A stretch of DNA of 64,000 bases from Notolepis coatsorum. Its lineage: Eukaryota > Chordata > Actinopteri > Aulopiformes > Paralepididae. Each line of letters begins with the position of its first letter. The stretch's first letter is position 1. The notes beneath the pieces were generated by a model, which saw only the letters and a list, made by a program, of their open reading frames with translations, was not told the origin of the DNA and searched no databases. Shown here piece by piece: positions 5,351-34,784 of the stretch. The stretch covers positions 155,235,083-155,299,082 of the forward strand of contig OZ020585.1 in assembly GCA_963971535.1 (NCBI GenBank), read 5' to 3'. The position numbers and the translations under genes were made by a program.

Positions 5351-5586
5351 ATCTCGGGCATGCCATTTCTTTAACAGGTTAACATGATATAGCTGTCGAT
5401 GCTTCCTAGTTCCTACGGTCTGGCTGGTGGACCTTGTAGTTAGGGGTGGGCGATATATCGAGTATACTCGATGTATCGCGGATTGTTCTACCCGAGATGT
5501 AGTACTGTACTATATCGCGAACATCGAGTATTTAGTTTATATGGCGCCGCCCGCGGCCGAGAGACACTCGCAGTGCTTTCCTCGAC

Positions 5587-6908: not shown

Positions 6909-9041
6909 CTACGCTGTCGGGACTAGTACGAGGACCCGGTCCCCCACATTGAACTCCCGTGGCTGTGCGCCCCGGTCATAATTGCGCTTCTGTGCGTCTT
7001 GGGCCTGTTGCATGTGTTCTCTTACCACCGGCCAGAGTGCCTTCATCCTGTCTCTCATCACCTGCACATGCTCTATGAGAGACCGGTGGGGCGACGGCTG
7101 TTCCTCCCAAATCTCCTTTGCGATGTCCAGGAGACCCCGCGGCTTATGGGTGTAGAGCAGCTCGAACGGCGAGAAGCCAGTGGAAGCCTGTGGGACCTCA
7201 CACACAGAGAACATCAGAAAGGGCAACAACTGATCCCAATTCTTCCCATCCTTCTCCATCACCTTCCTTAGCATGCTTTTCAGTGTTTTGTTAAAACGTT
7301 CGCACAGCCCATCCGTCTGCGGATGGTATATGGAGGTTCGCAGCTGTTCCACTTTCATTAGTTTGCACATTTCCTTCATGACCCGCGACATAAAGCACAA
7401 GCTCTGATCAGTGAGAATGGAGTCGGCAATTCCCACCCGACTAAACAAATGAAATAGCTCCTGTGCCACGATTTTGGCTGTCACCGTACATAACGGGATG
7501 GCTTCGGGGTAACGCGTTGCATAATCGATGATTACCAGTATATACTGGTGGCCCCGGGATGATTTGACATGGGGGCCCACCACGTCGAGGGCAATTCTTG
7601 AGATAGGGGTCTTAATGATGGGCAGTGGGATCAGAGGATTTTTGTAGTGTACCTTTGGTGCTGCGTGTTGACACTCGGGGCAGCTCCTGCAGTAGTCCTC
7701 TACCGCTCTCTTCATGCCCGGCCAATGGAAACGCTCCTTTATGCGCTCCATGGTTTTGTCCACGCCCAGGTGCGCTCCGAGGATATGCGAATGCGCTAGC
7801 TGGAGTACAGTGGAAATGAAGAATTTCGGCACCAGCAATAATTCTTTAACCTCATCATTTTTCTTTACGACTTGGTACAGTAATTGTCTTTTTATTGCAA
7901 AGTGAGGATATGACAGGTTACTCACCCCCTCCACTGGATTTCCATCCACTGTTTTGACGTTCGCACGGGCCTGCGTTAGGTTTGGGTCCTCCAGCTGGGC
8001 TGTTCCGAACTGACCCGCCAGGTCCCTCCCCACCTCGTCCGCCTGGGGGAACTCCGCAAATGGGTCCTCGTCGCCGCTATCCGTCTCGGGGCCCGCTTGG
8101 GGCTCCGGCGCGTCTTCACCCACATCCGATGCAGTCTCAGTCTCACTCCCTGTTACATTCAGGGCACACACCTTCGGCTGACGTAATCCTCTCCTCTTCC
8201 TCGGTTTACCCGTGGAGGGTGGGGTGCGTGGGGAGATGACGGCTGAGCACAGCTGACGGTACAGGGGGCAGTCTCGTCCAATCAGCAGCGCTACCGGCAG
8301 GTTAGGTATGACGCCGGCCGTCATCGAGCAGACCCCCTTGGTGGTTGTCAGGGTGATCTGCGCTGTGGGATATAATCTTGTGTCTCCGTGAACACAGGAC
8401 ACGGACACTTGCGGAGCCCCTGTGTCGCAGTGTGCCAAATGGGGCTGAACCAGTGTTATGACACTACCCGAGTCCAGGAGTGCTACCGCGTCCTTGTCGT
8501 TGACGCGCACGGGTAAAAGTGTCGCTGATGTTTCCTTATGGGCCCAACAGGCTGCGCCATAATTGCAGGTTTTACCGCGGGGGTCTGAAGCCGCCGCCGA
8601 TGGCATGGACACATCCCGGCCTGGGCAGTTCCACGAGAGATGCCCTGGCTCGCCACAGTCATAGCAGCGTCTTTGGGCCTGGTCAAAGAGCGGCCTTCTT
8701 CGGGGTAGTTCGGGATCACCTGCGTTCCCTACCCGGCCCCTTGGGCTGGGCTCGTCGGGACCCCTCCTCATTCTTAGTCGCTCTGGCTTTTCCCCTCGCC
8801 CCCCTTTGAGCAACTCCCGCGTTACTTGGTGGGACTCCACAACGTTCACTAGTTGCTCCATGGAGCGGGGGTCCGCCTGACTCGCCTGTTTCTTCGTGTC
8901 ATACGGGAGGGCTCTAACAAAGCGGTCCATAACAATACGTTCCAAGACAGTGGGCCCTGCAGGCTCGGTCATTAGCCAGGCTCGGCTTATGCGGATTAAG
9001 TTGTGCATCTGGGAGCGCGGGGAGGCCTGTGCGTCATACAC
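6909..9041 (-). pseudogene. Gypsy gag C-terminus, protease and integrase
   Basis: This 710-residue frame carries the C-terminal half of Gag, a CCHC knuckle at residues 126-139 (CYDCGEPGHLSWNC) and an aspartic protease with DSG at 190-192. Integrase follows with an HHCC zinc finger (H...H...CRSCPEC) from about residue 420. Its catalytic Asp lie in DVVGP and LTDQS, and its Glu in ERFNKTLK after YHPQTDG. The triad is intact, but the usual DQGTPF motif reads DQSLCF. The frame ends at a TAG that stands where Gypsy elements usually have a Glu codon; the domain continues in phase beyond it (CKFLAKWQGPY), so the stop is a nonsense mutation. Gag and pol share one frame here. Confidence 0.88.
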
Positions 9042-9045
9042 CCAG

Positions 9046-9453
9046 TCATGAAAACGCTGCGCACGGGACTGCAGACAAGAAAATCTCTTGCTTTAGCCGG
9101 GTGTAGTTCCCGGCTTGCTCCGGTGGTAGGTCCTGGTAGGCCTTTTGCGCATTACCCGACAGGAAGGGGGCCAGCAGTCCCCCCCAGTCCTCCTCCGGCC
9201 AGCCCTCCCGGTTGGCGGTGCGCTCAAACGCTAGGAGATAGGCTTCTATATCCTCCTGCTCCGTCAGCTTGGGGATGAAGCGCCCGGGGTTAGGCCGCGT
9301 CCCTGTGAGCCCTTTGTCCTGCCTGTGAGAGGCCATCCGCTGGAGCTCCGCTTGGATCATCCCCGTCTGTTTCCTCTGTTCATGTAGGGCCTCCTCATGC
9401 CGGGCCTGTTGTTCCAGGTTCGCCTGTACGAGCTGCTGCACCAGTGCGTCCAT
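9046..9453 (-). pseudogene. Gypsy gag N-terminus, separated by a frameshift
   Basis: The first 135 residues of the Gypsy Gag start at Met 9453, a short distance inside the 5' LTR. An N-terminal Gln-rich helix is followed by a capsid-like stretch (YLLAFERTA, then GNAQKAYQDLPP) typical of Gmr1-type Gag. The frame ends at a stop near 9046. Coding sequence resumes one base out of phase around 9070 (RFHDW) and runs into the 6909-9041 frame. It is therefore one gag gene broken by a single-base indel. Confidence 0.82.
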
Positions 9454-18645: not shown

Positions 18646-18649
18646 TATT

Positions 18650-19666
18650 TGTAGTAACTTCCTAGCTTTAACTCCTACTCTGCGTTGTGATTTAAACCTT
18701 ACAAAGCTTCTTAGAAGAACTACTCTTTCCAAATGCAGATAACCAATGTTTAATCTGGTTTCTGCTTACCCTGAGAGAGCACACGGCGCGGCCGTTGAAA
18801 TGAAGCGAAGTCGGAGCAGTTTTTTTTTTTTTTTCAGTTTTTTAATGAAAAAAGGATTTCAATCAGATTACAAATCAAATATTTGAAAGAATGGTGCAAT
18901 GAATTCTACCGGGAGCAGTCGCTATGCCGAAGGTCAGTAGAATTCAGTCTAACCGTTCAATATCTAAAAAGCTTGTAGCTGCTCGTTGTTCGTTCTTCAA
19001 AGATGTTTTTGCTGCGTCCGTCTCTCTGCTGCAGGGTCCTCAATATCTAGTGGAGAAAAAGGGTGTGTTTGTTGCTTCCTGGGTCTGTGGGTTGTTTTTG
19101 TGTCTCTCCTGGCGAGGAGTTTTGGCTATATCCAATTTAGGCTCCGCCTCTAATTTTACGGCAAGCGGGCGTTTCCAAAACTCGCCTCGAGCGTTTCTAT
19201 TGGAGAACACTTATTCTCAGCTCTCATTGGCTAACTCACTACCGTGACGTTTTGAACTAATTTAGGTCACGGAGTGGCTTCAAATGGTCTTTTCTTTGAT
19301 CAACTGCTGCTTTGTTTTAGCAGAGACAATCTGGCGTCTCTCAAGGCAGTTTCTTTGTATTCAATTTGTTTGGACCATTTGCCTAGGGCCCTGGGTTGTA
19401 AAATCACCCATGTTTATTGACTTTCCCAGGAAGTTCAAACGAGACACTATCTCTCACTCAATCAGCATCTGCCTGCTTCAACACCCCTTTTAGGAAGTCT
19501 TGAGCCAAGCAGCTGCGTTATCAAATCAGCGATGTGTCTCGTTTCTTTTGTTTATAGAGGTAGAGGAGCAAGGGAAAATAGTGAATGTATTTTACCTGTT
19601 GGTGTTTTTGCCATTCTGCTTTGTTGTACATATACACAGTTTGCTTTCTGACGGAAATCTACCACA
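18650..19666 (-). repeat. Retrovirus 3' LTR
   Basis: The 1017-base repeat starts TGTAGTAAC and ends TACCACA. It differs from the 5' LTR by a poly-T/GAAAAAGGATCC tract near 18,821 and a single C/T at 19,159. A short purine-rich stretch (AAACCGGGGAAC on the minus strand) lies just inside it as a possible plus-strand primer. Confidence 0.93.
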
Positions 19667-20218
19667 GTTCCCCGGTTTGGGGATTAATGATCCCCAATAT
19701 ACTTGTTAGTATTTTCTCAAACAAACTGTTTACAATTACCTTAACCTTACTGTTTAGCCTAATTTCCTCAGAGCCAAACCTTTCCAGAATCCTTCTGACT
19801 CATTTTCCATATTTGTTAGTATCAATTGCTTTCAACACCCACATTAGCTCCCTCCTCCACTGACCGACTATGAATCCATTTTTGTTTACACAGTTCTCTA
19901 TTCACTCACACCGTTTAACAATTTCCACTCATTTGCCGGTTATACACAATGTATCAGTTATATCAATTTCACTTCAGTCTAGGTCCGTCCCTTTATACAA
20001 AAAGATGATCGTACCAATTACCAGGTTTAGACTATACTTATGTGTTTTTTAACCAAATGTGTCTGTTTTGTGCAATTCACTCTGAAAGAAAAGACCTTAC
20101 ATTGCATTTACTATCTAAACATTTCTAAAAAAGGAGAGAGCTCAGCTAATGAAAAATGAAAAATTAATATGTACACGCCCTCTCCAAGGCCTATCAGTTA
20201 CACTATCCCTTCTTTCGC
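19667..20218 (-). other. Region between pol and 3' LTR, without env
   Basis: In ordinary retroviruses env follows pol. This 550-base stretch is too short for env and holds no envelope-like frame, transmembrane segment or cysteine motif on the coding strand. It is AT-rich untranslated sequence. Confidence 0.8.
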
Positions 20219-23200
20219 CTATGTATACCGTTTAGGCTTCTGGATGACTCGTTTTGGTCGAGTATCTTGTTCCGGGCTTGTGCTAAGCACTGGTTCCTCC
20301 GGTTCTTCTGGTATCTTCTCCAAGTCCACAGAGGAGAAATTATTATGTTCCAATTCATAATCTTCTCCTCTGTCTGGTTCCTGTAAAAAACCTTCATCTT
20401 CTACTGGTGGCCAATCGTGGCCCCCTCGGTCTGGCTCGCCATAATCATCCGGGTCTTCCCCATCGTTTGGGGTTAGCGCCGCCTTCACTTCGCCTTCGTG
20501 TAACGGTTGCGACGCCCCGGTTTTACCGTCAAGGTCTTGTGGTTCAGGTTCCCATTCTTGGTCCGTATTGATTGCTTTTACACAATGAGTAACGTGAAAC
20601 CACATAGGTGATCCTTGAATTTGTAAAGCCCTCTCGGTGGCTCGAACGACTTTGTATGGCCCTTCTCGTCTCGCGCCAAACCACTTGCGTCTAAATACTT
20701 TTACATAAACGTAGTCGCCTGGTATGATTTGAGGTGTAGTCTGCCTATTCACCTCCTCCCCGGTTTCATGCTCCTGTCTACTGGAGACATGAACCAGAAT
20801 ACTTTTGTGTATCTTTGACATGTATTTTACGTACTCACGCATGTCGTTGTCCAGGATGTCCAAACTCGGACCTTTGCCTGTCGCGCGCAAACCTGGTACT
20901 ACCATGCAGCGACCTAACATCATTTCGTGCGGTGTCAGACGCAGACCGCGAATTTCGCTCGAACGACAAGCCATCAAAGCTAAAGGGAGAGCGTTTAGCC
21001 AATTCAAGCCTGTGTGTTGACAGATCTTTACCAATTTGTTTTTTAGTGTCCCGTTCATGCGTTCCACCAACCCCTGGCTCTGCGGATGATAAACGGCCCC
21101 CAATCGCTGTTTTATGCCTAAATGTTGGAGTATTAAACGTACAGTTTTGTCGACGAATTCTTTCCCATTGTCGCTCGAAATTCTGTCCATTAGCCCAAAT
21201 CTCGGACATACCTCTTGGCACAAGAACTTGGCCACTGATGCTGCATCCTTGTGCCGGGTGGCGCACGCCTCCACCCACCTTGAAAAACGACAGACAACGA
21301 CAAGAATATATCTCTTCTGATTAATGGGCTTAATCATGTCAATGTAATCAATTACAAGGTCTCGCATTGGGCCATTGGGCGTGGGGATATGTCCTGGTGA
21401 CACACTAATCCCCTTACGTATATTGTTTTTCAAACATATTACACACCTCTGTAACACATGATCAATTTGACTGATCAAATCTGGCGCCCAAAAGCCATAT
21501 TCTCTGATTTTTCTCCTTACCTCTCCTTTATGCGCATGGCAAAAGTCGTGCGCCGCGTGGATCAGCAGTCCGACCAGGCCAGCAGGAGCCACCACAAATC
21601 CACCGGCGTCGCGCCACAAACCTGAATCATCCTGACAAGCTCCCCTGGTTATCCAGAGGTTCCGTTCTACCTGACTAGCCTCCTCCTGGAAAGTCAAAAC
21701 ATCTTTGTAGGTTATCTTGTCCTCTAACTCAACTCCGTGTGTGATAACCAATACCTTGCCTGCTCTGTCAGCACCTGTCACTTCCTTGGCAGCTTCGTCT
21801 GCTCTTCTGTTTCCTCGAGATATCTTTGACTCGTCAGACTGGTGGGCAGCACACTTGATTATCGCAATCCGCTTTGGTTTCATAATTGCTTCTAACAATC
21901 GTTTAATCTGACTACAATGTTTTATGGCGCTTCCGTCAGCTTTCTTAAAACCTCGCCCTTTCCACACTGTTCCATGTAAAAATGCGGTACCGTGAGCATA
22001 ACTGCTATCGGTATGAATATTCACAGTTCTGCCCTCTGCCATGTTACATGCTTCCGTCAGTGCGACCAACTCTGCTAATTGGGCCGAACAAGGTTGTGAT
22101 AATGCTTCGGCTTTTTCTACCACAAATCCTTCGCCCTGCGACCTTACCACGGAGTAACCTGCTTTTAGTCCCTCGCCAACACGATAACAAGAGCCGTCAG
22201 TCCATAACTCCAGATCTGGACTGTCAAATGGAAATGCCTGCAAGTCTGCTCTGAGTTTAGAGTACCTCTCGACTTCGACTAAACAGTCGTGGGGTTCTCC
22301 ATCCTCAGGCGTAGGGATGTCAGCTGCCGGGTTCGTTATGGAACACCTGACCAGCGTCACGTCTTCCTGTTCCAAAAGTCTGTAGTAGTGTTTAATGCGA
22401 GGCATCGTTAGTGCATATTTACCGGACTCCAACAGACTCTTTAAGTCATGCCTCACCATGATATCCACTGGATATCCCATCATAATACTTGCAGCTTTTT
22501 CGTACATCGTATACACTCCAGCCATTTCTCGGTAGCATGGAGCCATCCCCATCTCTACTTCCGAGTAGGCAATTGAGTAGTACGCCATCGGCTGCGGTCG
22601 CGCCCCCACCCCTGTGTTCTGGGCCAACACCGCACACGCCTGCTTCTGATCTGGTGAAGAAGAGACGTATAGTATGAACTTCTTGGTATAGTTAGGCAAC
22701 GCCAAGGCCGGCGCCTCTAACAGTCGGGACTTGATTGTTTCGAATGCCCGTGAGCCCTCTTCGGTCCATACCACTTTACTGCTCAGTTTATCAACGCCCG
22801 TTTCTTTCAGCATCTCTCTCAATGGTTTCACTATTTCCGTATAGTTCTCGACCCACGGAGAGCTGTACCCCATTATACCCAGAAATCCCATTAGCTGTCG
22901 TACCGTCACAGGCTTGGGTGCCGTCCTTATGGCCACCAAATGTTCTTCTGAAATAGCCCGATGGCCCTGTGAAATTGTTTGTCCTAAATAGATCACTTTA
23001 GGTTTACAATATTGCAACTTTTTCAACGACACTTTATGGCCGTTTTCCGCCAACAGTTGCAACAGTTTCACGGAATCGCGATGACATGTTTCCTGATCGT
23101 CCGCGCACAGTATCAGATCATCCATGTACTGAATGACCCTAGAGGTCATGACTTTATCCAACCCCTCTAAATCCTCCCTTAGGATTTTGTTGAATATGTG

Positions 23201-24643
23201 TGGCGAATGCTTTAGTCCCTGCGGGATCCTAGTATACTCATAATATTCATCCTTATAAGTAAACCCAAAAAAATGCTGGCACTCCTCGCTCAAGGGCACA
23301 CTAAAATATGCACTACACAAATCTATAACTGTATAGTACTCAGCTTTCGACGGGATAAATGTCAATAGCACATGGGGGTCGGGGACATCGGACGGATAGT
23401 CAAGTAACACCTCGTTGATAGCTCTTAGATCATGCACCAGCCGGTAAGAGGTATCCGGCTTCTCCACGGGTAGCAACGGCGTGTTGCTCCGGGGATCAGT
23501 TGTTTTCCGTAAGACTCCTGCAGCTAAAAGTCCTTTAATTTGTGGCTCGATTCCAGCCACTGCTTTCTCCTTCAATGGATACTGTTTCTTCCAAGGCAGG
23601 CTGGCCCCAGGTCTAAGCTCCACCTTCACAGGTTGAGTGGACTTGATTAGTCCAATGTCAGTGCTGTTTTTTGCCCACAGCGTCTCAGGCACCGCCTCCA
23701 TCATGTCCTCTTGGAGGCTTGATGCATTAGGGAGTTCTCCCAGTGTCTCTTGGGATAATTGCACAGTTTGGGGACGACCCATCCCTGTGCCTTGAACCAT
23801 GATCTTAATAAACCTTTTATCAGGGCTCATCCAGATCCGTTTGTTTTCTTTCATCTGTTCAAATTCTATCCCTTCAGCTTTTTTCATCATTTCGCCTATG
23901 TGTTGTTGATCACATGAGCTGATTACCTTCAAAGTCACATGGGGAACACTATCCATAATGCCGTGCTCTTTACGCAGATAGTCGCTCCGTGCAATACGTA
24001 ACGCTGCTCCCTGTGGCCCCAATATGATATTGGTAGCATTCAGCTGTACTTTGTCAGGTTGCACCCTCAGCCACTCCTTAGTCTGTGACGAGTTTGCATC
24101 TCTATGATACTGCAGAGTGCAGTGATAGGGGGTCTTTGGATCCCTTGCTTCAGGCATATTGGCAGTGATACATTTCTCCCATTGTAAGGCGGGGCCAAGT
24201 AGCTCTTGGTCCAATCCCCCTAGACAATAGATCTCTGGTGGTTGACTGTCAATTCGTTGTACCATCTGATAGTACTGGTCTTCTCGTTCGGCTATCACGC
24301 AACCCTCCGCAGTACATTTAATGTCCATCCCCAGTAACCCCAGCCCATCTCGGCCGAGTAAGTTAATAGGTGTGCTCTCCGAGACCAGCACAGGGAGAGT
24401 CGCTTCCCTGCCTTGATATCTCAGAGTCACAGGTTCGGTAACAGCCGTCAGCTGGTTTACTCCCTCAAATCCAATTGTCCGTACATATCGACCGGACAAG
24501 GTTAGGTGCGTCGCGTCTTGGGGTTGTACTACCGTGTAGGCCGCGCCGGTGTCTGCCATCATCTCGACAGATTTGTCATTCACCGTTACGCACACAATAG
24601 GCTCCTCCCTTAAAGACGACACTGACAGCTGACACCTCCCCAT
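20219..24643 (-). CDS. pol: Retroviral Pol: protease, RT, RNase H, integrase
   Basis: This open 1474-residue frame supplies the enzymes for reverse transcription and integration. Protease has DTGA at about residues 31-34. RT carries IPQGLKHSP and the YMDD active site at 506-509. RNase H has LWTDGS near 813, then AELVALTEA, HTDSSYA and a final ADEAAK. Integrase has a His-His-Cys-Cys finger (CVICLKN), Asp in VIDYID and SSDNGKEF, Glu in ERMNGTLK, and a GPY-type C-terminal domain (GPYKVV). A charged acidic tail follows. All catalytic residues I can check are present. The frame is in phase with gag, separated only by a UGA, so expression by stop-codon readthrough, as in gamma-like viruses, is likely. 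The ATG at 24,643 may not be a true start. Confidence 0.93.
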   Translation of the reverse strand: MGRCQLSVSSLREEPIVCVTVNDKSVEMMADTGAAYTVVQPQDATHLTLSGRYVRTIGFEGVNQLTAVTEPVTLRYQGREATLPVLVSESTPINLLGRDGLGLLGMDIKCTAEGCVIAEREDQYYQMVQRIDSQPPEIYCLGGLDQELLGPALQWEKCITANMPEARDPKTPYHCTLQYHRDANSSQTKEWLRVQPDKVQLNATNIILGPQGAALRIARSDYLRKEHGIMDSVPHVTLKVISSCDQQHIGEMMKKAEGIEFEQMKENKRIWMSPDKRFIKIMVQGTGMGRPQTVQLSQETLGELPNASSLQEDMMEAVPETLWAKNSTDIGLIKSTQPVKVELRPGASLPWKKQYPLKEKAVAGIEPQIKGLLAAGVLRKTTDPRSNTPLLPVEKPDTSYRLVHDLRAINEVLLDYPSDVPDPHVLLTFIPSKAEYYTVIDLCSAYFSVPLSEECQHFFGFTYKDEYYEYTRIPQGLKHSPHIFNKILREDLEGLDKVMTSRVIQYMDDLILCADDQETCHRDSVKLLQLLAENGHKVSLKKLQYCKPKVIYLGQTISQGHRAISEEHLVAIRTAPKPVTVRQLMGFLGIMGYSSPWVENYTEIVKPLREMLKETGVDKLSSKVVWTEEGSRAFETIKSRLLEAPALALPNYTKKFILYVSSSPDQKQACAVLAQNTGVGARPQPMAYYSIAYSEVEMGMAPCYREMAGVYTMYEKAASIMMGYPVDIMVRHDLKSLLESGKYALTMPRIKHYYRLLEQEDVTLVRCSITNPAADIPTPEDGEPHDCLVEVERYSKLRADLQAFPFDSPDLELWTDGSCYRVGEGLKAGYSVVRSQGEGFVVEKAEALSQPCSAQLAELVALTEACNMAEGRTVNIHTDSSYAHGTAFLHGTVWKGRGFKKADGSAIKHCSQIKRLLEAIMKPKRIAIIKCAAHQSDESKISRGNRRADEAAKEVTGADRAGKVLVITHGVELEDKITYKDVLTFQEEASQVERNLWITRGACQDDSGLWRDAGGFVVAPAGLVGLLIHAAHDFCHAHKGEVRRKIREYGFWAPDLISQIDHVLQRCVICLKNNIRKGISVSPGHIPTPNGPMRDLVIDYIDMIKPINQKRYILVVVCRFSRWVEACATRHKDAASVAKFLCQEVCPRFGLMDRISSDNGKEFVDKTVRLILQHLGIKQRLGAVYHPQSQGLVERMNGTLKNKLVKICQHTGLNWLNALPLALMACRSSEIRGLRLTPHEMMLGRCMVVPGLRATGKGPSLDILDNDMREYVKYMSKIHKSILVHVSSRQEHETGEEVNRQTTPQIIPGDYVYVKVFRRKWFGARREGPYKVVRATERALQIQGSPMWFHVTHCVKAINTDQEWEPEPQDLDGKTGASQPLHEGEVKAALTPNDGEDPDDYGEPDRGGHDWPPVEDEGFLQEPDRGEDYELEHNNFSSVDLEKIPEEPEEPVLSTSPEQDTRPKRVIQKPKRYT

Positions 24644-24661
24644 TGGACTCTCTGGGCCTCT

Positions 24662-24664
24662 TCA
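24662..24664 (-). promoter_or_regulatory. In-frame UGA between gag and pol, readthrough candidate
   Basis: Gag codons run into TGA, and the same phase stays open through all of pol (27,211 to 24,643 is 856 codons). Gamma- and epsilon-type retroviruses express Pol by suppressing a single in-frame stop at this place. The following bases are AGAGGC. No pseudoknot was modelled. Confidence 0.75.
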
Positions 24665-27211
24665 TAGTGGTTCATCTGGCCCTCTTGCTGGATTTACCGG
24701 GCCATTGTTCTCATTCCGGTCTTGGACTCGGGGTTGACCTTGGCCTTGCCAAGTTCTTTCCTGGTCTCCCTCTCTGGGTTGACAAGCCTGTCCACACTCC
24801 CGTGAGATATGACCAGTCTCCCCACACGTCCAACACACCATCTTCCGCACCGGGAATCCATTCGGATTCCGGCCTCTGCCTCCACCTTTCGGTCGTGGTT
24901 GCCACCCTCTCGACCTCTGTTGTTGGTCTGGCGCATAACCCCCTGGTGTTCCCACTTGAGCCCGTCTCTGTCCCTGTGGTTCCCCTTCATAGCCTGTCCC
25001 ATCTCTTGGTTGTGGGGCCTGGACTAAGGCTTGAAGGTATTCCACTACCTTTACTACCTCGGTTGGCTGTTGGTACATGATCTTACGTTGTTGCTCCGTA
25101 TCCTTCTCCTTTGCTCTTTGCTCTTTCTTCCGATACAGTTCAACGTAATGCTCTATTTGATCTATATATAATTCCAGCGCCATCTTTGACAATGACACCA
25201 CCTCGGCCAATTTCTGTCTTACCTCTAGGGGGAGGCCGTTTTCAATCTTGGTTCTTAACTGGGCTTCATGCATAGGGTCAAGTCCCGCCTCCTGACCAGT
25301 TGTGTTCTTCCACGCGGAATAGGCTTGTCGTACGTATTGCCTGGGGTGCCCTGTTGTCTCCAAAGTACCAATCGGAATTTGGTCTGCGTGCAGTCTCATT
25401 GGATAGGCTTCTCGTAGGGCCGCCCACGTTACTCCCCTGTACACTGTGAACAGGTCCGCATCATGCGCTCCAGTCCCCACATGGCCATGCAGGCGAGCCG
25501 TCTCCAGTATCCTTTCCATGCCGTCTTTTCCCATCATGGTTGTCAATATCTTCTTGACATCCCCCATTGCCATTTCTGTGCCAACCATCACCTCCTCCAG
25601 TTTGGCAATCCAAGGATTGGCCCCATTCTGGAGGGGCGGCAATTTCTCAGTCACCTGTGTCATGTCCGACACCTTCAGGGGGTGATATTCCAGGTCCTGT
25701 CCTCTTATTATTATAGGAGCCATGCGGATAGGGGCTTGCTTGTTTTTCGTCTGTGATCTTGTCTGTCTTCTCTCCCTTACACGCTCTTGTACCTGCAAGA
25801 GGGCCTCTTGCTTCTCTCCTCTTTTGTCTTGCAGGGCCATTTGCTTTCCCTCAATGCCAGCCCGCGTCCTCATGAACGTATGATATTCCTCCCCCTCCGC
25901 TTCCATGGCCGCATGGTCGGGTTTTTGTCCAGCTAGGACCACTTGATCTTTGTCCAAAGCCATGAGCCCCTGCTCTATCTCCGTCAGATTGTCTTTTATC
26001 CGTGTCATCTGCCCCCCAAGTATGATGTCGATAGTCTCCAGCTCCTCACCTACTGCATCTATAGTCACAAGCTGTGGTATTGTGAGACCAATCTTGTGAC
26101 TGCCAGGTGCTACCCCCTTGTGGGCCTGGGGTTGGGGGGAGGTAAAATGCTGGGGGGGAATGAGCTCTCGATATATAGTACGGGGCGTAGGAGCTGGGGG
26201 GCTTTGGGGGTACTCCAGCTGGTGGACAGGCTCTCTCTGGTAGTCTCTCTGGTGGTCATACTCTCTCTGAGGCTGACCGTGGGCCTTCTTCACCCTTTCC
26301 CACTCTTTCTCTTTTAACATTGCCTCATAGCCTTCCTTATTCTTTCTTTCAGCTGCTTGTATCACTCTTGTTCGCTCTGTCAGCTCTTCTATCCTTTCCC
26401 TTGGTCGTGGGGTGGTTGCATACTCTCTGACTGACCCAGTCTGGGCTGACCTGTCTGGTCGCCGTGAGGCGGCCACACCCTCTCTGTCTGACCAATTCCA
26501 GTCTGACCTATCTGGTTGCCTAGCTGTCAGCTGAATAGATGTCTTTGCTTGTCCCTTCTCTTGGTTCCCCAGATCATCTGTCAACTGGTAAGGGCTTATC
26601 ATCTCTAATAAAGGTAGGATGGGGTATATTGTCTCCCCCTTCCTACTGACATATGGCGGGGGTGCTAAAGCTCCCTCAATTCTTTCCTGTTGGGCCATAA
26701 GATAGGAGGCTGAGGTGGGTGAGGCTAACTGCACTGCACTTTGGGCGGTGACAGGTGTTGTCTCAGGGGCCAGGGGAGTTATGGTGACCTGGACTACCCC
26801 CTCTACAGGTTTGTCTGCATCATTGCCATTTGCAATGGCCTTCTTTTCACTTTCTCTTCTCTCAGCTTCCCGTGCAAAAGCTTTTAAAATGCTATTTTCT
26901 TGCAACCTTTTCTTTGCTCTTTCCTCATCTTTCCCCTGATATGTGTATGCCTTAATTAGTGTTCCTATAAGAGCTATTAACTCCAAATCAAAAGAACCAT
27001 CGACTGGCCAAAGCTTCCATCTTTCATTCCATCTTCTTGATATATAAATTGCTTTGTTCAAATAATATTCGTTACCTTTTGTCGTGTCGTGTTCATTGGC
27101 AATCATTTGTACTGGACTTTCTTCCATCCACCCAATTAAGGTCGACTTACCTGCGTCGGTCGTGTCTTTTATCTTTTTATATGCGCTTAGATTGTCTCGT
27201 TTTCGCCCCAT
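24662..27211 (-). CDS. gag: Retroviral Gag
   Basis: This open 849-residue frame encodes the structural polyprotein. The N-terminus is basic (MGRKRDN) and the ATG context AAAATGG is strong. The middle is long, Gln/Arg/Glu-rich and partly Pro-rich (PPAPTPR), matching a matrix-linker region. Residues ~600-720 look like a gamma-type capsid, including a homology-like stretch (HPRQYVRQAYSAW) and a long charged helix near YVELYRKK. A single CCHC knuckle (CWTCGETGHISREC) lies at 793-806, close to the C-terminus. Gag is longer than in most class I viruses (about 500-600 residues). The frame ends at UGA and continues as pol. Confidence 0.9.
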   Translation of the reverse strand: MGRKRDNLSAYKKIKDTTDAGKSTLIGWMEESPVQMIANEHDTTKGNEYYLNKAIYISRRWNERWKLWPVDGSFDLELIALIGTLIKAYTYQGKDEERAKKRLQENSILKAFAREAERRESEKKAIANGNDADKPVEGVVQVTITPLAPETTPVTAQSAVQLASPTSASYLMAQQERIEGALAPPPYVSRKGETIYPILPLLEMISPYQLTDDLGNQEKGQAKTSIQLTARQPDRSDWNWSDREGVAASRRPDRSAQTGSVREYATTPRPRERIEELTERTRVIQAAERKNKEGYEAMLKEKEWERVKKAHGQPQREYDHQRDYQREPVHQLEYPQSPPAPTPRTIYRELIPPQHFTSPQPQAHKGVAPGSHKIGLTIPQLVTIDAVGEELETIDIILGGQMTRIKDNLTEIEQGLMALDKDQVVLAGQKPDHAAMEAEGEEYHTFMRTRAGIEGKQMALQDKRGEKQEALLQVQERVRERRQTRSQTKNKQAPIRMAPIIIRGQDLEYHPLKVSDMTQVTEKLPPLQNGANPWIAKLEEVMVGTEMAMGDVKKILTTMMGKDGMERILETARLHGHVGTGAHDADLFTVYRGVTWAALREAYPMRLHADQIPIGTLETTGHPRQYVRQAYSAWKNTTGQEAGLDPMHEAQLRTKIENGLPLEVRQKLAEVVSLSKMALELYIDQIEHYVELYRKKEQRAKEKDTEQQRKIMYQQPTEVVKVVEYLQALVQAPQPRDGTGYEGEPQGQRRAQVGTPGGYAPDQQQRSRGWQPRPKGGGRGRNPNGFPVRKMVCWTCGETGHISRECGQACQPREGDQERTWQGQGQPRVQDRNENNGPVNPARGPDEPL
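27145..27154 (-). promoter_or_regulatory. Consensus 5' splice site within gag codon ~21
   Basis: The minus strand reads GCAG|GTAAGT, a perfect vertebrate donor, with the junction between 27,151 and 27,150. Some retroviruses place the major donor in early gag codons to reach env downstream. Here no env lies downstream, so the site could be a remnant of a conventional layout or chance. Confidence 0.45.
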
Positions 27212-28264
27212 TTTTTCTCTTGTCTTTTTTATCTTGTAACAATGGCAACAGGCAGAACAATAGCTTGTGTAATCCCTATCTAAGTGTAGGTGTCTATGCT
27301 TTTGTGACTATCTCCTACTCGGACAGCCAATAGTGGCACTGTGGGCCCTTCCTATTCTCTTCTGTCCCTTGTTCAGTTGAAATTCCTATTCTTACCTGAT
27401 TTGTGGTGTTCCGCGTGTCCAATCGAACTGCTGGAGATCAGAGCACACAATGACAACAGTTCTTGTTAATTTATCAACCGGACTTGTACTTTACTCTGTC
27501 TTTTTAATCAAATTCCTGAGAGGTTCCTTTCATTCACTGTACGAGTATCTTTTTTACTTTCCTCATACACTCTTAAACATGAGACAATTGTAATTGATAC
27601 ATGTGTGTGATACCACCCGTTTCTACTCCCCGTTTTTCTTCTCGTTCGATCTCTGTCAACACACTGGGTTCCTATGTTTCGAATTTCCGCTCTCCTTTAC
27701 TTCTGCTTGATTCTGCTCCAATTCTGATACCCCTCGGAAAACAAAAACATCGTGATTAATATAGTTGCATTCATTTTTTCACATTCTTTTCATTATTCAG
27801 TACCACACCCCCCAGGGGACACCTGTCACCCAGACACGTGTCCCCCAGAGGTAATCTAAAGAATGCCACAGATGCCGCGCCACGCACGCCGTGAGGTGTC
27901 GACCCTGTTTACTGAAGAGACCTTGACAGCCCCTCCACAGTGGCCTAAACCCACCTCACCACAGGTACACAGCAGTCAGCATCCCGGCAACCTCTCCCGT
28001 CCTTCAGGCCAGTATCCCCAGAGTCCAGTGCCCTGCCGGACGGCCATGCATAGCCGACCAGACCCAACACCGAACCCCGGGCACACCGCCCCACATCATA
28101 CAGTCACTCCAAACGTACCTACTATGGGGAAAAAAAACACAATTGTACACACAACCCTATCCCGTCAACCGCAACGCACGGCCGCCCAGGAACGTCCCCC
28201 GCCTCACACCCACACGCACGCCCCGGCCCTCCCACTCCCCAACCCTGAATGTCCACCACCCAGA
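27212..28264 (-). other. Spacer between env-like frames and gag
   Basis: About 1 kb without a convincing minus-strand frame. No LTR-like terminus or element junction is seen, so env and gag belong to one continuous element as far as I can tell. The long plus-strand frame starting at 27,863 is Pro/His/Arg-rich and is antisense shadow. Confidence 0.5.
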
Positions 28265-29158
28265 TCAGAGAATAGTCGCCAGCGCGGACGCCGGGCACCA
28301 CGGCTTTATCGGAACGCCCACACCTACCCTGCCACCCTCCGCGCCATCCTTTATCACCATCATCGCATACGCAGGTGCAACCGAGCGGTGTGGGTCCCCA
28401 GACGCAGAACCAGCCGCGCCGAGAGTCCTGAACACGTATGTCACACACACCCTGATAACATTCACACAAACTACTATAACCGCAAACATCACTACAGCAC
28501 ACAGCAAATACTTAGCAATCGTCCATCCTATATAACCCAACCAACTTTGGCCCCAGCCCTCCCACGAGTCCTCCCGCGTGGGCTGCATCTCCCTAGTAAT
28601 ATTCTTCAAATGCTCTATAACCTCCTGTATGCCGCCTATGTCATTTTCGGGGATAAATGTGCAGCATTCCTGACCAATCAATGCACACGTGCCTCCTGAA
28701 CTCGCCAACAGGAAGTCCAAACCCGTCCTTGACTGCAGCTCCATCAGTCTTAAGGACCGTAACTCTTGAGCCTCCAGGGCCATACCTCTCGCGGTCGTAG
28801 CCGTCATATCCTCAAACACGCGAGCTAGATGGTCCAGTTCACCCATGTTTGCATACGTCCCCCACCAGGGAAACGCCACCCTGAAAAAATGGTCCGCATC
28901 CATCATCCTCCTCCTCCTTGACTTGGGAATCGTCGGCAAAACATCTGACACCCTCATAGCTGGCACCAAATACCCCAACGCACACCTACCCCTCCACTTA
29001 ATAGGCAACGCCGCGTACGCATACTCACCACAAATCCAAAACGCCCCCCCTAGGGGCCGGCGCCTCCGAATCCTTACCCCATACTCCACTCTCACCCATG
29101 CAGCCGTCCAAATATCCCACGTCCTTACCACCAGACTTCCCCTCCACGCACATCTCAA
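28265..29158 (-). pseudogene. env: Env-like transmembrane subunit (end of SU plus TM)
   Basis: This 297-residue frame carries the class I Env fusion subunit. A furin-like KSRRRR lies at 79-84. A heptad-rich segment leads to an immunosuppressive-like region (LQSRTGLDFLL, 141-151) and a CX6CC motif (C158, C165, C166). A hydrophobic membrane anchor spans about 213-236, followed by a short tail. The part before residue ~35 overlaps the SU frame in another phase, so the true env coding sequence enters here by a frame change near a C7 run at 29,043-29,049. CX6CC predicts disulphide linkage to SU. Its position 5' of gag is abnormal. Confidence 0.82.
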
Positions 29159-29741
29159 ACCCAGCCGCCCTAAACGCCACCGGAATGGGGCTAGTGTCCT
29201 TCAGACCCCCAAAACCTATCGCCTTATTCGACCCCAACCCCCGGCCCAAATACCTCAACATCTTATCATGACCCACCCCGTCGCATGGGCCGGAGAGAGG
29301 CACGTCCCTCAACACGTTGGCATGACACTTCGTTAAGGGGTGCGCAATCAAAGGAAGACCTGCGTCGGCCGCCAGCGGGGCCAAGCCACACACATAACAA
29401 TCCGACCTATTCGCTGCCTTAGCCACAGTCCTCGCCATCCCCAAAAACAGATTACCGCGACGGTCTGGCTGCGACCTCCTACCCACTATCACCACCTCTG
29501 GCTGTTCAGGTCGCAGATATGGATCATACATTATAGTACCGATCAACACACACAACCAAATCATTGCCACGGCACCCCCCCGAAGCACCCGCCTACTACT
29601 GTCACTCAAACCAGGAACCATGTTTGTCTGTTCCTTCCTCTTCTTCTTCCCTCTGTCCCCGGCGCGTATCCTAATATGTCCTGCAATCCCCACAAACAAC
29701 AACACAACTTTATAACCAGACATACCACAGTCCACTGACAT
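29025..29741 (-). pseudogene. env: Env-like surface subunit N-terminal part
   Basis: This 238-residue frame starts 12 bases after a good splice acceptor. Residues 9-21 (YKVVLLFVGIAG) could be a signal peptide core, and a second hydrophobic block lies at 56-71, so a long leader is also possible. A CYVC motif at 115-118 next to an NRS glycosylation site fits the CxxC motif of gamma-type SU, the partner of CX6CC in TM. Further cysteines follow. The frame runs out of phase with the TM frame at about 29,045. A one-base indel in the C7 run (mutation or assembly error) is the simplest explanation. Confidence 0.72.
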
Positions 29742-29752
29742 GAGGACCCCAA

Positions 29753-29785
29753 CCTAAACACAATACCAGGACAAGAAAAAAGGCC
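29753..29785 (-). promoter_or_regulatory. Splice acceptor directly before the env-like ATG
   Basis: The minus strand reads a pyrimidine-rich CCTTTTTTCTTGTCC, then TGTTTAG|G, with the AG at 29,755-29,754 and the env ATG at 29,741-29,739. This is a credible 3' splice site for a subgenomic env RNA made from a donor in the leader. Confidence 0.5.
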
Positions 29786-29957
29786 GCAACGTAACCGTCA
29801 ACCGGCCAAGAGAGGACCAGGCCAGAGGGAAAACGTGTATCCCCATGCCGGTCTTCAGAAGGAAGAGGAGGGAGAGAGAGAAGGGCACAGCGAGTGGGGC
29901 AAAGGATGGAGTGGGGGGGGCAGAAGGGAAACGGGAGCGAGGGGGGAGAAAGAGAAA

Positions 29958-30120
29958 AGGGGGGGGGGGGGGGGGGGTTTAAAGGAAAATCAGAAAAAAG
30001 GGGGGGGGGGGGTCTCAAAGGAAAATCAGGAGAGGGGGGGTTTAAAGGAAAACCAGGAGAGGGGGGGGGGGGGGAAATCAGGAGAGGGGGGGGGGGGAAT
30101 CAGGAGAGGGGGGGGGGGGT
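29958..30120. repeat. G-run repeats in the retroviral leader
   Basis: Five or more G-runs of 7-17 bases are spaced by variants of TTTAAAGGAAAATCAGGAGA. The G-rich strand is the antisense of the virus. The spacing would allow G-quadruplexes. Long homopolymers also make assembly errors likely. Confidence 0.9.
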
Positions 30121-30200
30121 CTTTGGAACAAACCTGTTCCAACCCATAAAACACATTACACCATAAGCCATACTCTGCACTGCCCAAACGCCTCCTATTT

Positions 30201-31044
30201 GAGAAGGAGGAAGAGAGAGAGAACAGCAAGAAAGCTAGAAAAAGAGAAAAGGGGGAGAGAGAGGAAGAGGAGGGGAGATGGAGAGGAAGAGGAGGGGAGA
30301 GAGAGAGAAAGAGGAGGGAAGAGAGAGAGGAAGAGGAGGGGGGTGAGAGAGGAAGAGGAAGGGAGAGAGAGAGAGGAAGGGGAGGGAAGAGAGAGAGAGG
30401 AAGGGGAGGGAAGAGAGAGAGAGGAAGAGGAGGGGAGAGGAAGGGGAGGGGAGAGAGAGAGAGGAAGAGGAGGGGAGAGGAAGGGGAGGGGAGAGAGAGA
30501 GAGGAAGAGGAGGGGAGAGGAAGGGGAGGGGAGAGAGAGAGAGGAAGAGGAGGGGAGAGGAAGGGGAGGGGAGAGAGAGAGAGGAAGAGGAGGGGAGAGG
30601 AAGGGGAGGGGAGAGAGAGAGGAAGAGGAGGGGAGAGGAAGGGGAGGGGAGAGAGAGAGAGGAAGAGGAGGGGAGAGGAAGGGGAGGGGAGAGAGAGAGA
30701 GGAAGAGGAGGGGAGAGGAAGGGGAGGGGAGAGAGAGAGAGGAAGAGGAGGGGAGAGGAAGGGGAGGGGAGAGAGAGAGAGGAAGAGGAGGGGAGAGGAA
30801 GGGGAGGGGAGAGAGAGAGAGGAAGAGGAGGGGAGAGGAAGGGGAGGGGAGAGAGAGAGAGGAAGAGGAGGGGAGAGGAAGGGGAGGGGAGAGAGAGAGA
30901 GGAAGAGGAGGGGAGAGGAAGGGGAGGGGAGAGAGAGAGAGGAAGAGGAGGGGAGAGGAAGGGGAGGGGAGAGAGAGAGAGGAAGAGGAGGGGAGAGGAA
31001 AGGGAGGGGAGAGAGAGAGAGAAAGAGGAAGGGGAGGGGAGGGG
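30201..31044. repeat. ~0.84-kb purine (plus) / pyrimidine (viral sense) tandem repeat
   Basis: Almost every base on the plus strand is A or G. From about 30,420 the unit is 40 bases (GAGGAAGAGGAGGGGAGAGG then AAGGGGAGGGGAGAGAGAGA), about 15 copies. Because 40 is not a multiple of three and the units lack stop triplets, long Arg/Glu and Ser/Leu/Pro frames are open on both strands; I regard them as artefacts. The tract lies in the 5' leader of the retrovirus, between the 5' LTR and env. Confidence 0.95.
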
Positions 31045-32137
31045 ACCTTGAGGGAGCACATCATGGCGAGAGGATTTGAAAGCACCCCGCACATTTACAC
31101 CAGAGGGACTGTGGAAACAAATAGGCTATAACTATTCCTAAGACAACATCGCCCCCTGCTGCCCTTTTCCGCACTCACGCCTATTGCACCACAGTACCCC
31201 CCAACATCCTGCAGGAGGCGCCCCCAACCTTTTAACAATACGTGCGTCATTACGCAACTACACCCCCACAACGCCAGCCCACGTGCCCACTCAATTTTAA
31301 CCCCAATCCCCAGAATCCCCTGCACCGAATTGTAGTTCGTCTCGCAGGCCGGCTTCCTGCTAGACCCCGCCACCGAAATTACGTCACGTCCGCAATTCTG
31401 AGATCTCGTTGGTCTCCAGAATAGCACAACGCGAGGCTTTGTCACGGGACTTTTCATTTGTTTACAAATACATCCGTTTCTCTCATTCATTCCTAACCTC
31501 TCTAAAGCGGCCCACTCATTCATCGTACATCCTTAAACATGTCTAAACAACCAGCCAATACTTTGTAAACATTAGCCCATTCCTTATTAAAGATAATACA
31601 GTTATACTGCAATAAAGCGAGCCACTACGAGCTATTGTAGCATGTAGCTTTAACCTAGCCGCGCGCTATGATACGCACGAGTTCTGACGAGAACGCGCTT
31701 CCCCTCCACGCATAGTTGAGTGGCGCAGTGGATATTGCGTGCACCAGGTTCAACACTAAAAACCGTTCTCAGTCATATTTTAAGTGCCAATTTACAGATT
31801 TAATCCATATACATCACACACGTTCAACATAACCATAAGTCCTTTCACTCATACACAAACATCATACACCAACAAATGTTTAACCATAGCTTGCAACATT
31901 ATTATTATGGTCTCTGCCGCACGCGGTATAACTCCACATCCCGTTAACAACCACTGGGCATATTTTACCCTCCGTACTTTAGACAGTGTTTAAGTTTACC
32001 ATATCGTTTCCTATAGCTTTTTAATCGACTACTCATTAAGTACTATTTTTTGTTACAGCCTAACGCAGTCTAATTAACACGCCCGCTGTGCACAAGGTTA
32101 AACTAGACCCTTCGGTCTGCCGCGCACGTACCATGGT
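31045..32137 (-). other. Retroviral leader, one unidentified frame
   Basis: A 142-residue frame at 31,095-31,523 (minus) is Gly/Cys-rich (CICKQMK, WGCSCVMTH). It shows no family I recognise and no clear membrane or signal segment, so I give it low weight. The rest is non-coding as far as I can see. Confidence 0.35.
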
Positions 32138-32341
32138 TTAACCCTGAGCACGAATCCAGACCCCGCTTTTATCAAATAGCCACGTATAGACTTGTAACTC
32201 CGACTCGCCACCCCCTGGTCCCGAAGGTCCCACTATACTCACCCGCTCAAATTGTATGTCCTGAATGGTAACAGCGCTCCGTTTTCTCTTCCCATATTCC
32301 CCGTGCTTAAATTCTACTTTAGAACATACAACGCACCCCAT
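32138..32341 (-). CDS. Small leader frame starting MGCVVCSK, possible accessory protein
   Basis: From the ATG at 32,341-32,339 (context AAAATGG, strong) a 67-residue frame begins MGCVVCSK. Gly2 followed by Cys3 and Cys6 is the pattern of N-myristoylation plus palmitoylation seen in Src-family SH4 regions, so membrane anchoring is conceivable. A basic patch (GKRKR) and a Gly/Pro segment follow. No family is recognised. It is the first well-placed ATG after the 5' LTR. An in-frame upstream ATG at 32,380 would add 13 hydrophobic residues. It could equally be a chance frame. Confidence 0.35.
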   Translation of the reverse strand: MGCVVCSKVEFKHGEYGKRKRSAVTIQDIQFERVSIVGPSGPGGGESELQVYTWLFDKSGVWIRAQG

Positions 32342-32353
32342 TTTCAGAGCTGC

Positions 32354-32362
32354 GCTTACCAG
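32354..32362 (-). promoter_or_regulatory. Candidate leader 5' splice site
   Basis: The minus strand reads CTG|GTAAGC with the junction between 32,360 and 32,359, about 440 bases after the 5' LTR. It is the best donor-like sequence I noticed near the leader start and could pair with the acceptor at 29,754. Confidence 0.4.
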
Positions 32363-32782
32363 CCAGAACATACAAATCATTCCTTAATAACCGCGCCCCC
32401 TAACCCAAGCATCACCCACTAGGGATCCGGTAATCTCTTGGGCAGCGCACCTATCGCCCGCACACAGGGCTATTGTGGTCCCCTGGCCTGGAGAACCTTA
32501 GCCTGTCGCGATACGACGCCCATAACCTATCTCGCGAACCAGTCCGGCGGTGTCGACCTCCTTTTCTACTTCATGCTTACATGAGGTTAAATTCTTAGCA
32601 ACCCCCTCCATGGTTCGAATAGAGCACCCAAATACATCATCACACTCACCTCTTAGTAACTTCTCCAGTCACTTGAAGACGATCGATCGATCAGTTGTTC
32701 TCCTCGTCGACCGGCGTGAAGAAAGAGAAGAGAAAAAAAAAAAAAAAATTCTTTTGTTGTGGTGACAAAACGAGCGCTCTGA

Positions 32783-32800
32783 TTCTAAAGTCCGGCACCA
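32783..32800 (-). other. Retrovirus primer-binding site, tRNA not identified
   Basis: Two bases inside the 5' LTR the minus strand reads TGGTGCCGGACTTTAGAA. TGG is the expected start of a primer site. The first 8 bases fit tRNA-His or tRNA-Phe 3' ends (TGGTGCCG), but the rest matches neither as I recall them. Confidence 0.5.
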
Positions 32801-32802
32801 AA

Positions 32803-33817
32803 TGTAGTAACTTCCTAGCTTTAACTCCTACTCTGCGTTGTGATTTAAACCTTACAAAGCTTCTTAGAAGAACTACTCTTTCCAAATGCAGATAACCAAT
32901 GTTTAATCTGGTTTCTGCTTACCCTGAGAGAGCACACGGCGCGGCCGTTGAAATGAAGCGAAGTCGGAGCAGTTTGAAAAAGGATCCGTTTTTTAATGAA
33001 AAAAGGATTTCAATCAGATTACAAATCAAATATTTGAAAGAATGGTGCAATGAATTCTACCGGGAGCAGTCGCTATGCCGAAGGTCAGTAGAATTCAGTC
33101 TAACCGTTCAATATCTAAAAAGCTTGTAGCTGCTCGTTGTTCGTTCTTCAAAGATGTTTTTGCTGCGTCCGTCTCTCTGCTGCAGGGTCCTCAATATCTA
33201 GTGGAGAAAAAGGGTGTGTTTGTTGCTTCCTGGGTCTGTGGGTTGTTTTTGTGTCTCTCCTGGCGAGGAGTTTTGGCTATATCCAATTTAGGCTCCGCCT
33301 CTAATTTTATGGCAAGCGGGCGTTTCCAAAACTCGCCTCGAGCGTTTCTATTGGAGAACACTTATTCTCAGCTCTCATTGGCTAACTCACTACCGTGACG
33401 TTTTGAACTAATTTAGGTCACGGAGTGGCTTCAAATGGTCTTTTCTTTGATCAACTGCTGCTTTGTTTTAGCAGAGACAATCTGGCGTCTCTCAAGGCAG
33501 TTTCTTTGTATTCAATTTGTTTGGACCATTTGCCTAGGGCCCTGGGTTGTAAAATCACCCATGTTTATTGACTTTCCCAGGAAGTTCAAACGAGACACTA
33601 TCTCTCACTCAATCAGCATCTGCCTGCTTCAACACCCCTTTTAGGAAGTCTTGAGCCAAGCAGCTGCGTTATCAAATCAGCGATGTGTCTCGTTTCTTTT
33701 GTTTATAGAGGTAGAGGAGCAAGGGAAAATAGTGAATGTATTTTACCTGTTGGTGTTTTTGCCATTCTGCTTTGTTGTACATATACACAGTTTGCTTTCT
33801 GACGGAAATCTACCACA
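32803..33817 (-). repeat. Retrovirus 5' LTR
   Basis: This 1015-base LTR, read on the minus strand, begins TGTGGTAGA and ends GTTACTACA. A TATAAA lies at 33,707-33,702 and AATAAA at 33,569-33,564. The likely transcription start is therefore near 33,680, giving a short U3 and a long U5. It differs from the 3' LTR at about one base plus one tract. Confidence 0.93.
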
Positions 33818-33821
33818 TATT

Positions 33822-34151
33822 CTACCTTTAAACAAGGTAGAATTGTGTTGTATAGGAAACATGATCTTTGGGGGTGATTATTAATACTCTGCTCCTTTTA
33901 GATGGCACACATACTGTATCATAAATGTAGACGAGATGCATTTGTGTTTGGACTTGTATTTGCATGTGCTAGAATGGGCATATTTAAATCATAATTGTCT
34001 TAGCCCAGATGTATGGTTGTGTTGAACCTGTTTTTTTTTTTATTTATAATATATATCCCATGTATCATAACTATCATGTATAAAATAATACAACAGGGTT
34101 TGGTATGAGTAATGGATATGCGTTGTAGTTGTTATGTTATCTAGGCTCTTC
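33822..34151. other. Right flank of the retrovirus, unassigned
   Basis: AT-rich sequence without a frame or element terminus that I recognise. Confidence 0.4.
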
Positions 34152-34784
34152 CTGGCTAGTGGTGGTACTCTAGGACTGAGTTAGGATCTGGTTTAGATCC
34201 CTGGCTAGTGGTGGGAATCTAGGACTGTGTTAGGATCTGGTTTAGATCCCTGGCTAGTGGTGGGACTCTAGGACTGAGTTAGGATCTGGTTTAGATCCCT
34301 GGCTAGTGGTGGGACTCTAGGACTGAGTTAGGATCTGGTTTAGATCCCTGGCTAGTGGTGGGACTCTAGGACTGTGTTAGGATCTGGTTTAGATCCCTGG
34401 CTAGTGGTGGGACTCTAGGACTGTGTTATGATCTGGTTTAGATCCCTGGCTAGTGGTGGGACTCTAGGACTGTGTTAGGATCTGGTTTAGATCCCTGGCT
34501 AGTGGTGGGACTCTAGGACTGTGTTAGGATCTGGTTTAGATCCCTGGCTAGTGGTGGGACTCTAGGACTGTGTTAGGATCTGGTTTAGATCCCTGGCTAG
34601 TGGTAGGACACTAGGACTGTGTTAGGATCTGGTTTAGATCCCTGGCTAGTGGTAGGACACTAGGACTGTGTTAGGATCTGGTTTAGATCCCTGGCTAGTG
34701 GTAGGACACTAGGACTGTGTTAGGATCTGTTTTAGATCCCTGGCTAGTGGTAGGACACCAGGACTGTGTTAGGATGTGGTTTGG
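34152..34784. repeat. 49-bp minisatellite, about 13 copies
   Basis: Unit CTGGCTAGTGGTGGGACTCT then AGGACTGTGTTAGGATCTGG then TTTAGATCC, with period 49. Later copies share a variant (GGTAGGACACTA), so the array expanded in blocks. It abuts a LINE fragment. Confidence 0.97.

Follow-up and report, generated by a model that had tools for sequence, protein, structure and literature searches.

An endogenous retrovirus family in the genome of Notolepis coatsorum with env upstream of gag and pol

The genome of the fish Notolepis coatsorum harbors an endogenous retrovirus (ERV) family in which env precedes gag. The copy described here occupies positions 18650 to 33817 of a 64,000-nucleotide stretch of contig OZ020585.1 (positions 155,235,083 to 155,299,082 of the forward strand; this whole stretch is referred to as the window). 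Our best explanation, which as a whole we consider likely, is that the element is a member of a large ERV family that has been active recently and is organized as LTR - leader - env - gag - (UGA) - pol - LTR (LTR, long terminal repeat). An initial annotation of the window had left open whether the unusual gene order was a new genome architecture, a replication-competent permutation, or a one-off product of template switching. The first of these is supported, as a trait of the lineage; template switching in a single copy is excluded, as is a misassembly, given that the same order recurs at 28 of the 40 env matches scored across the genome and in all 20 half-copies that we retrieved.

Read in the viral sense, which is the minus strand of the window, the provirus consists of the 5' LTR, leader, env, gag, UGA, pol, a stretch of 552 bases, and the 3' LTR (Table 1). 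The matched LTRs with their TATT duplication and the succession of env, gag, UGA, and pol agree with the initial annotation, as does the absence of env from the roughly 550 bases after pol: no open frame of at least 90 residues is present in the viral sense between pol and the 3' LTR. The LTR pair shows 2 substitutions over 1006 aligned bases. A further 20 columns of the alignment are gaps, most of them due to a single A-tract change (18812-18845 versus 32965-33000), where one LTR has a run of A and the other a different sequence. Matched LTRs, a short target duplication, and a putative primer-binding site behind the 5' LTR are features of a Retroviridae-type provirus. The pol region has the make-up of a class I-like ERV, with protease, reverse transcriptase (RT), RNase H, and integrase in succession, an integrase tail of the murine leukemia virus (MLV) type, and gag and pol in the same frame across a stop codon. 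The gag-pol-env order that belongs to this type is found neither in the window copy nor in the family copies listed. No Rfam family reached the gathering threshold between positions 18000 and 34500.

Table 1. Features of the provirus in the window, listed in the viral sense
Feature	Position	Strand	Details
Target-site duplication	33818..33821 and 18646-18649	.	TATT (+) = AATA in viral sense; 4 bases
5' LTR	32803..33817	-	1015 bases; termini TGTGGTAG...TTACTACA
Primer-binding-site-like stretch	32783..32800	-	begins TGGTGCCG, two bases past 5' LTR
Putative main splice donor	32644..32652	-	GAG/GTGAGT, intron start 32649; ~150 bases after 5' LTR
Pyrimidine-only (viral sense) array	30255..31045	-	units of ~40 bases; between donor and env
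Putative env splice acceptor	29753..29773	-	TTTAG/G; score 2.0; kept in 14/14 matched copies
env, SU-like frame	29025..29753	-	ATG 29741; SDCYVC motif
env, TM-like frame	28265..29200	-	RRRR cleavage-site-like run, CX6CC, membrane-anchor-like stretch
Acceptor-like site just after env	28121..28141	-	TTTTTTTTCCCCATAG/TAG; best score outside array; kept in 20/20 copies
Putative gag splice acceptor	27430..27450	-	GATCTCCAG/CAG; score 2.8; within 322-base ATG-free stretch before gag
Second donor-like site	27390..27398	-	CAG/GTAAGA; 184 bases before gag ATG; kept in 11/11 matched copies
gag	24662..27211	-	ATG 27211; open; one CCHC zinc knuckle; stop TGA 24662-24664
pol	20219..24661	-	protease, RT, RNase H, integrase, MLV-type integrase tail; open; same frame as gag, behind TGA
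Post-pol stretch	19667..20218	-	552 bases, no env; GGGGAAC, then 3' LTR
3' LTR	18650..19666	-	1017 bases

The host genome (3.42 Gb) was searched with six queries, and 40 candidates were scored for each: the LTR (of 683 candidates), the env transmembrane (TM) region (of 821), the post-pol stretch (of 1675), gag (of 515), the leader (of 685), and a second gag type (of 1410). All match counts given here are thus lower bounds and are biased toward the copies nearest to that in the window. Among the best 40 of 821 env matches, which lie on many contigs, 28 are followed by gag 0.5 to 3 kb downstream on the same strand (23 with type A gag and 5 with type B), and none shows the usual order with env after pol. 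Post-pol sequence is found within 12 kb upstream of env at 2 of the 40, on C7 and on C6 near 17.6 Mb (L028), and both times an LTR stands in between, as expected of copies in tandem. Conversely, an LTR follows the post-pol stretch directly, at about the distance seen in the window, in 16 of the 40 post-pol matches listed, and these 16 therefore have no room for env. This comparison of gene order among other copies, which the initial annotation had called for, thus found env-first copies again and, among the matches listed, none with env placed between pol and the 3' LTR.

The 20 half-copies were fetched by two routes, 13 by an env match and 7 by an LTR match without a listed env match. All 20 contain TM sequence followed by the post-env and pre-gag stretches (16 with the whole TM, 4 with part of it), and env sequence is present in each of the 7 picked without an env match. 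An LTR match lies upstream of env in 17 of the 20. Compared with the LTRs of the window copy, theirs are 78 to 99% identical, the lowest value coming from only part of an LTR, and because of this span the env-first order seems to be older than the split between LTR subfamilies. At three loci the LTRs are flanked by 4-base target duplications (AATA, CATC, and CAAG), with 2 to 3 substitutions per approximately 1000 bases between paired LTRs. The duplications CATC and CAAG at the two other loci mark independent integrations, and units of the family thus insert with 4-base duplications. Taken together, these observations establish the env-first order as a trait of the family. An assembly artefact or a single rearranged copy has nothing in its favor except the rarity of the order; against it stand the 28 env matches on many contigs, the target duplications at three loci, and the uniform half-copies, and we regard its chances as negligible.

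For 12 of the 40 env matches, no gag was found among the gag matches listed; one of these (L027) was fetched and shows env, the pre-gag stretch, and then integrase after a deletion. A count that speaks against the family-wide order comes from 10 further stretches picked by post-pol sequence: 3 have TM before gag and 1 has post-env sequence before gag, whereas 3 contain nothing but sequence of the leader, LTR, or post-pol region, and in 3 there is nothing.

Two further features of the family were seen in these searches. At three loci (L010, L017, and L028), post-pol sequence, a single LTR, and the leader of the next copy follow one another, an arrangement of tandem proviruses with a common LTR. 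The second gag type (type B; L015:218-1747) encodes 510 amino acids with two CCHC stretches and resembles the gag of the window only in its zinc-knuckle end. The distance from gag to the post-pol match is 3.5 to 4.0 kb in 12 of 14 listed type-B pairs and 6.6 to 7.2 kb in 14 of 15 listed type-A pairs; from this shorter spacing, some 3 kb of gag-pol seems to be absent from type-B copies, which may therefore be non-autonomous.

The upstream gene encodes an Env of the retroviral gamma type. Its TM-like frame matches the TLV_coat profile (PF00429; E = 2.7e-9) in a Pfam profile search, and TM residues 51-230 align with Syncytin-2 (7oix; E = 4.5e-17) in a PDB sequence search. The significant PDB matches of TM comprise retroviral Env proteins and filoviral GP2; the 55 PDB sequences listed for it include no fusion protein of the paramyxovirus type. 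Together with TLV_coat, the translations contain a CX6CC motif, a CXXC-type motif in the surface (SU) part, a basic run resembling a cleavage site, and a stretch resembling a membrane anchor, where the RRRR run, CX6CC, SDCYVC, and the anchor were picked by eye. The SU-like frame has no Pfam profile match and no PDB match. No protein relative of TM was found at E <= 0.001 among 3134 candidates, and a search of viral contigs for relatives of TM and RT returned none.

In the window copy the SU-like and TM-like frames overlap in different phases, and env is thus broken by a frameshift there. SU and TM share one frame in 4 of 15 fetched copies with both landmarks, one of which has an N run upstream of the compared part; very long frames around env that were caused by N runs were left out of the counts. 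During the diversification of the family, env was subject to purifying selection at the protein level. Between two groups of env sequences (L019, L021, and L027 versus the rest), the ratio of nonsynonymous to synonymous differences per site (pN/pS) is 0.38 for SU (bootstrap 0.21-0.63, 3 x 8 sequences), compared with 1.16 and 0.82 in its alternative frames; TM gives 0.30 (bootstrap 0.14-0.63, 3 x 16 sequences), compared with 0.95 and 1.19. Over all pairs, pN/pS is 0.37 for SU and 0.26 for TM. At the level of substitutions, with indels ignored, in-frame stops occur in 0 of 19 TM sequences and 1 of 11 SU sequences.

This picture of selection must be set against several observations. Bootstrapping gave broad ranges for the alternative env frames (0.40-2.98), which are not separated from the ranges of the true frames. 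The env groups were defined after SU identity was known (SU of L019, L021, and L027 is about 94% identical to that of the window), and the grouping is unclean for TM because the TM of L027 is 99% identical to that of the window. Finally, although none of 14 copies has a stop in the first 186 codons of gag (26653-27211), the pN/pS of 1.08 for these codons gives no sign of purifying selection, and the 5' part of gag may be under relaxed or diversifying selection.

One alternative is that env is a passenger: an env-less LTR retrotransposon would have acquired env in its leader as a cassette that it did not need and that multiplied along with it. Base composition does change at approximately 27,700 to 27,900, from 36-39% G and 19-20% A in env to 33% A in gag, and a passenger would fit both the scarcity of copies with SU and TM in one frame and the 4 of 20 fetched half-copies that are without most of SU and part of TM. 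Such an origin would leave unexplained the purifying selection that SU and TM show in their respective frames and the position of the env ATG as the first behind a conserved acceptor, and the RT relatives of the element have an env of their own after pol. We therefore judge a passenger env improbable.

How such a genome would be expressed is suggested by its splice-like signals. When 878 GT sites were scored with general splice-site frequencies, the donor at 27150 came first, that at 32649 second, and that at 27395 third. All 10 matched copies retain the core of the 32649 donor, and the longest ATG-free stretch outside the pyrimidine array (738 bases) ends 9 bases beyond this donor; when a 670-base part of it was subjected to simple base shuffling, 0 of 300 shuffles were ATG-free. 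The first ATG after the putative acceptor at 29753 is that of env, 12 bases on. The second-longest ATG-free stretch outside the array (322 bases; 1 of 300 shuffles ATG-free) ends at the gag ATG, and the pre-gag region is ATG-free over 319 to 322 bases in 14 of 14 other copies. Within it, the AG of the 27430 acceptor is kept in all 14 type-A copies, 10 of them exactly and 4 reading ACAG. The pyrimidine array has counterparts in other copies: of the 20 fetched half-copies, 13 have no N runs and could be judged, and each of these 13 has a tract of 324 to 1568 bases at 94-100% C+T. It may act on splicing; a central polypurine tract is ruled out, since the array is pyrimidine in the viral sense.

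From these signals a scheme can be proposed in which transcription would start in the 5' LTR and the donor about 150 bases behind it would be used in two ways. Joined to the acceptor before env, it would yield an Env mRNA whose first AUG is that of env; joined instead past env to the acceptor before gag, it would yield a Gag-Pol mRNA whose first AUG is that of gag, with Pol made by read-through of the UGA. Because the same conserved donor would serve the acceptor before gag, Gag-Pol too would come from spliced RNA, and the unspliced RNA would be mainly genome. In its full form, this reading describes a vertebrate retrovirus lineage with a stable env-gag-pol order, in which all proteins, Gag-Pol included, would be made from spliced RNA. 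The conserved donor would direct this together with acceptors in competition and the giant pyrimidine array, and unspliced RNA would be purely genomic. We put this full reading forward tentatively, as a possibility short of probable.

Several features of the signals weigh against the splicing scheme. The scores use general site frequencies, and the putative gag and env acceptors (2.8 and 2.0) rank only 16th and 21st outside the array. The best acceptor, at 28121, leaves 14 ATGs ahead of that of gag, and an acceptor-like site at 29852 (score 6.5) would leave one other ATG ahead of that of env. An ATG occurs 23 to 181 bases before the donor in 3 of the 11 other copies with the donor. Type-B gag departs from the first-AUG rule in both copies read, with 39 ATG-free bases before it and 18 to 19 ATGs after the post-env acceptor.

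Another possibility retains the same architecture and confines splicing to Env: Gag-Pol would be translated from unspliced RNA by internal initiation in the A-rich, ATG-free pre-gag stretch (or from a leader promoter there). The modest score of the gag acceptor and the type-B copies that break the first-AUG rule are both in line with this, as is the pre-gag stretch itself, which is 37% A and so consistently ATG-free. It does not account for an AUG-free 5' exon closed by a conserved donor, or for retention of the 27430 acceptor AG in every type-A copy, and we consider it somewhat unlikely. On balance we give splicing to gag moderate weight and treat internal initiation as a serious rival.

The relatives of the element bear on how the order arose. 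A 22-row clade supported at 100/100 contains the RT of the window copy; its named members are all from fish, and P0019 is its sister (100/98). RTs of this clade (proteins from Astyanax, Archocentrus, Syngnathus, Pampus, and Scortum) are 58-69% identical to that of the window copy and come with the same pol domains. We infer the label epsilon/class I for the clade; among the 53 RT relatives returned, none is named walleye dermal sarcoma virus. P0037 (a rainbowfish protein with an RT 46% identical) and P0045 (56% over 48% of the query) are more distant relatives, in which RT precedes TLV_coat within one protein. The env-first order is probably derived, both because these two have env after RT and because the primer-binding site is separated from what appears to be an older leader by an env block that differs in base composition.

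Remains of the ordinary layout may still be visible. The second donor-like site before gag stands at the place where an ordinary retroviral leader has its donor. Three acceptor-like sites (20145, 20124, and 20081) lie within 65 bases just after pol with no gene behind them. Both look like leftovers of a genome with env in its usual place. One route to the present order, compatible with our best explanation, is a fusion of two proviruses, one contributing its env end and the other the start of its gag-pol, so that the pre-gag region would be the old leader behind a lost LTR. The pre-gag donor and the orphaned acceptor cluster would fit such an event, as would a G-run followed by TGTGGTA, the first bases of the LTR, at 27807; TGTGGTA also occurs at two further internal places, however, and in local alignments the stretch between env and gag has no similarity to the LTR, leader, or post-pol sequence above that of shuffled controls. 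A fusion of this kind is possible, if somewhat unlikely. For the same reason we rejected an LTR or leader remnant between env and gag: alignments against the LTR, the 5' leader, and the post-pol stretch scored no higher than shuffles.

The window also contains other elements. Two Pao/BEL-type retrotransposon pol regions (Peptidase_A17, DUF5641) lie at 52668-57161 and 61613-64000, one of them open over 1498 codons. A single frame at 6912-9092 combines a SCAN domain, H2C2 zinc binding, and an integrase core, and two further RT frames, at 3920-5509 and 59212-60045, belong to other elements. Just outside the 5' LTR, a 49-base tandem array of approximately 13 copies extends from 34151 to 34782.

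A young, multi-copy, env-first family under protein selection means that retroviral gene order can be changed in an element that still spreads, and it makes testable how Env and Gag are balanced under a reversed splicing logic. Gag and Pol are usually translated from unspliced RNA (PMC10309623), and in a zebrafish ERV env is made by splicing out gag and pol, following the usual logic, in the available part of PMC8672886. If true, the all-spliced reading would reverse this rule, by which unspliced RNA gives Gag-Pol and splicing gives Env. Programs that search for ERVs with env behind pol may classify elements of this kind as lacking env, and more of them may therefore have been overlooked. In the portions of the openly licensed literature available to us, we recognized no vertebrate retrovirus with env upstream of gag.

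In foamy viruses, Pol is made from a spliced RNA and env lies after pol. They resemble our proposed scheme in expressing one of gag and pol through spliced RNA, and differ from it in that env follows pol. Lokiretroviruses also have LTRs and the genes gag, pol, and env and occur in vertebrates, among them fish; the initial annotation had named them for comparison in an RT phylogeny. Excerpts of PMC9040795 describe their Env as resembling mononegaviral fusion proteins. Membership in this group was rejected, and an affinity to it is not supported, because the Env here is of the retroviral gamma type, with its TM matching retroviral TLV_coat and Syncytin-2.

The closer comparison is with retroviruses carrying gamma-type Envs, such as those of syncytins, the zebrafish ERV, and MLV, which share the RRRR run, a stretch like the immunosuppressive domain with CX6CC, an anchor-like stretch, and a motif of the SDCYVC type. 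The meaning of these motifs follows passages of PMC9967133 and of PMC8672886 (section 9), the former of which also names filoviral GP2 beside gamma-type Envs. In these viruses env is the 3' gene, whereas here it is the first. As far as the available text of the sources goes, env is the 3' gene of retroviruses and gag the 5' gene (PMC9927554, PMC4977317), and the order gag-pol-env is largely constant among them (PMC9927554).

Coding sequence ahead of gag has precedents of another kind. The orf C of walleye dermal sarcoma virus lies upstream of gag. Open reading frames (ORFs) upstream of gag are also described for bat betaretroviruses in part of PMC3621094, and an MC132-like ORF in that position for primate ERVs in part of PMC9927554. 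All three cases resemble ours in that a coding frame takes up all or part of the region from the 5' LTR to gag. They differ in that their frames are extra ORFs, whereas in the Notolepis family it is env itself that lies upstream, with none after pol.

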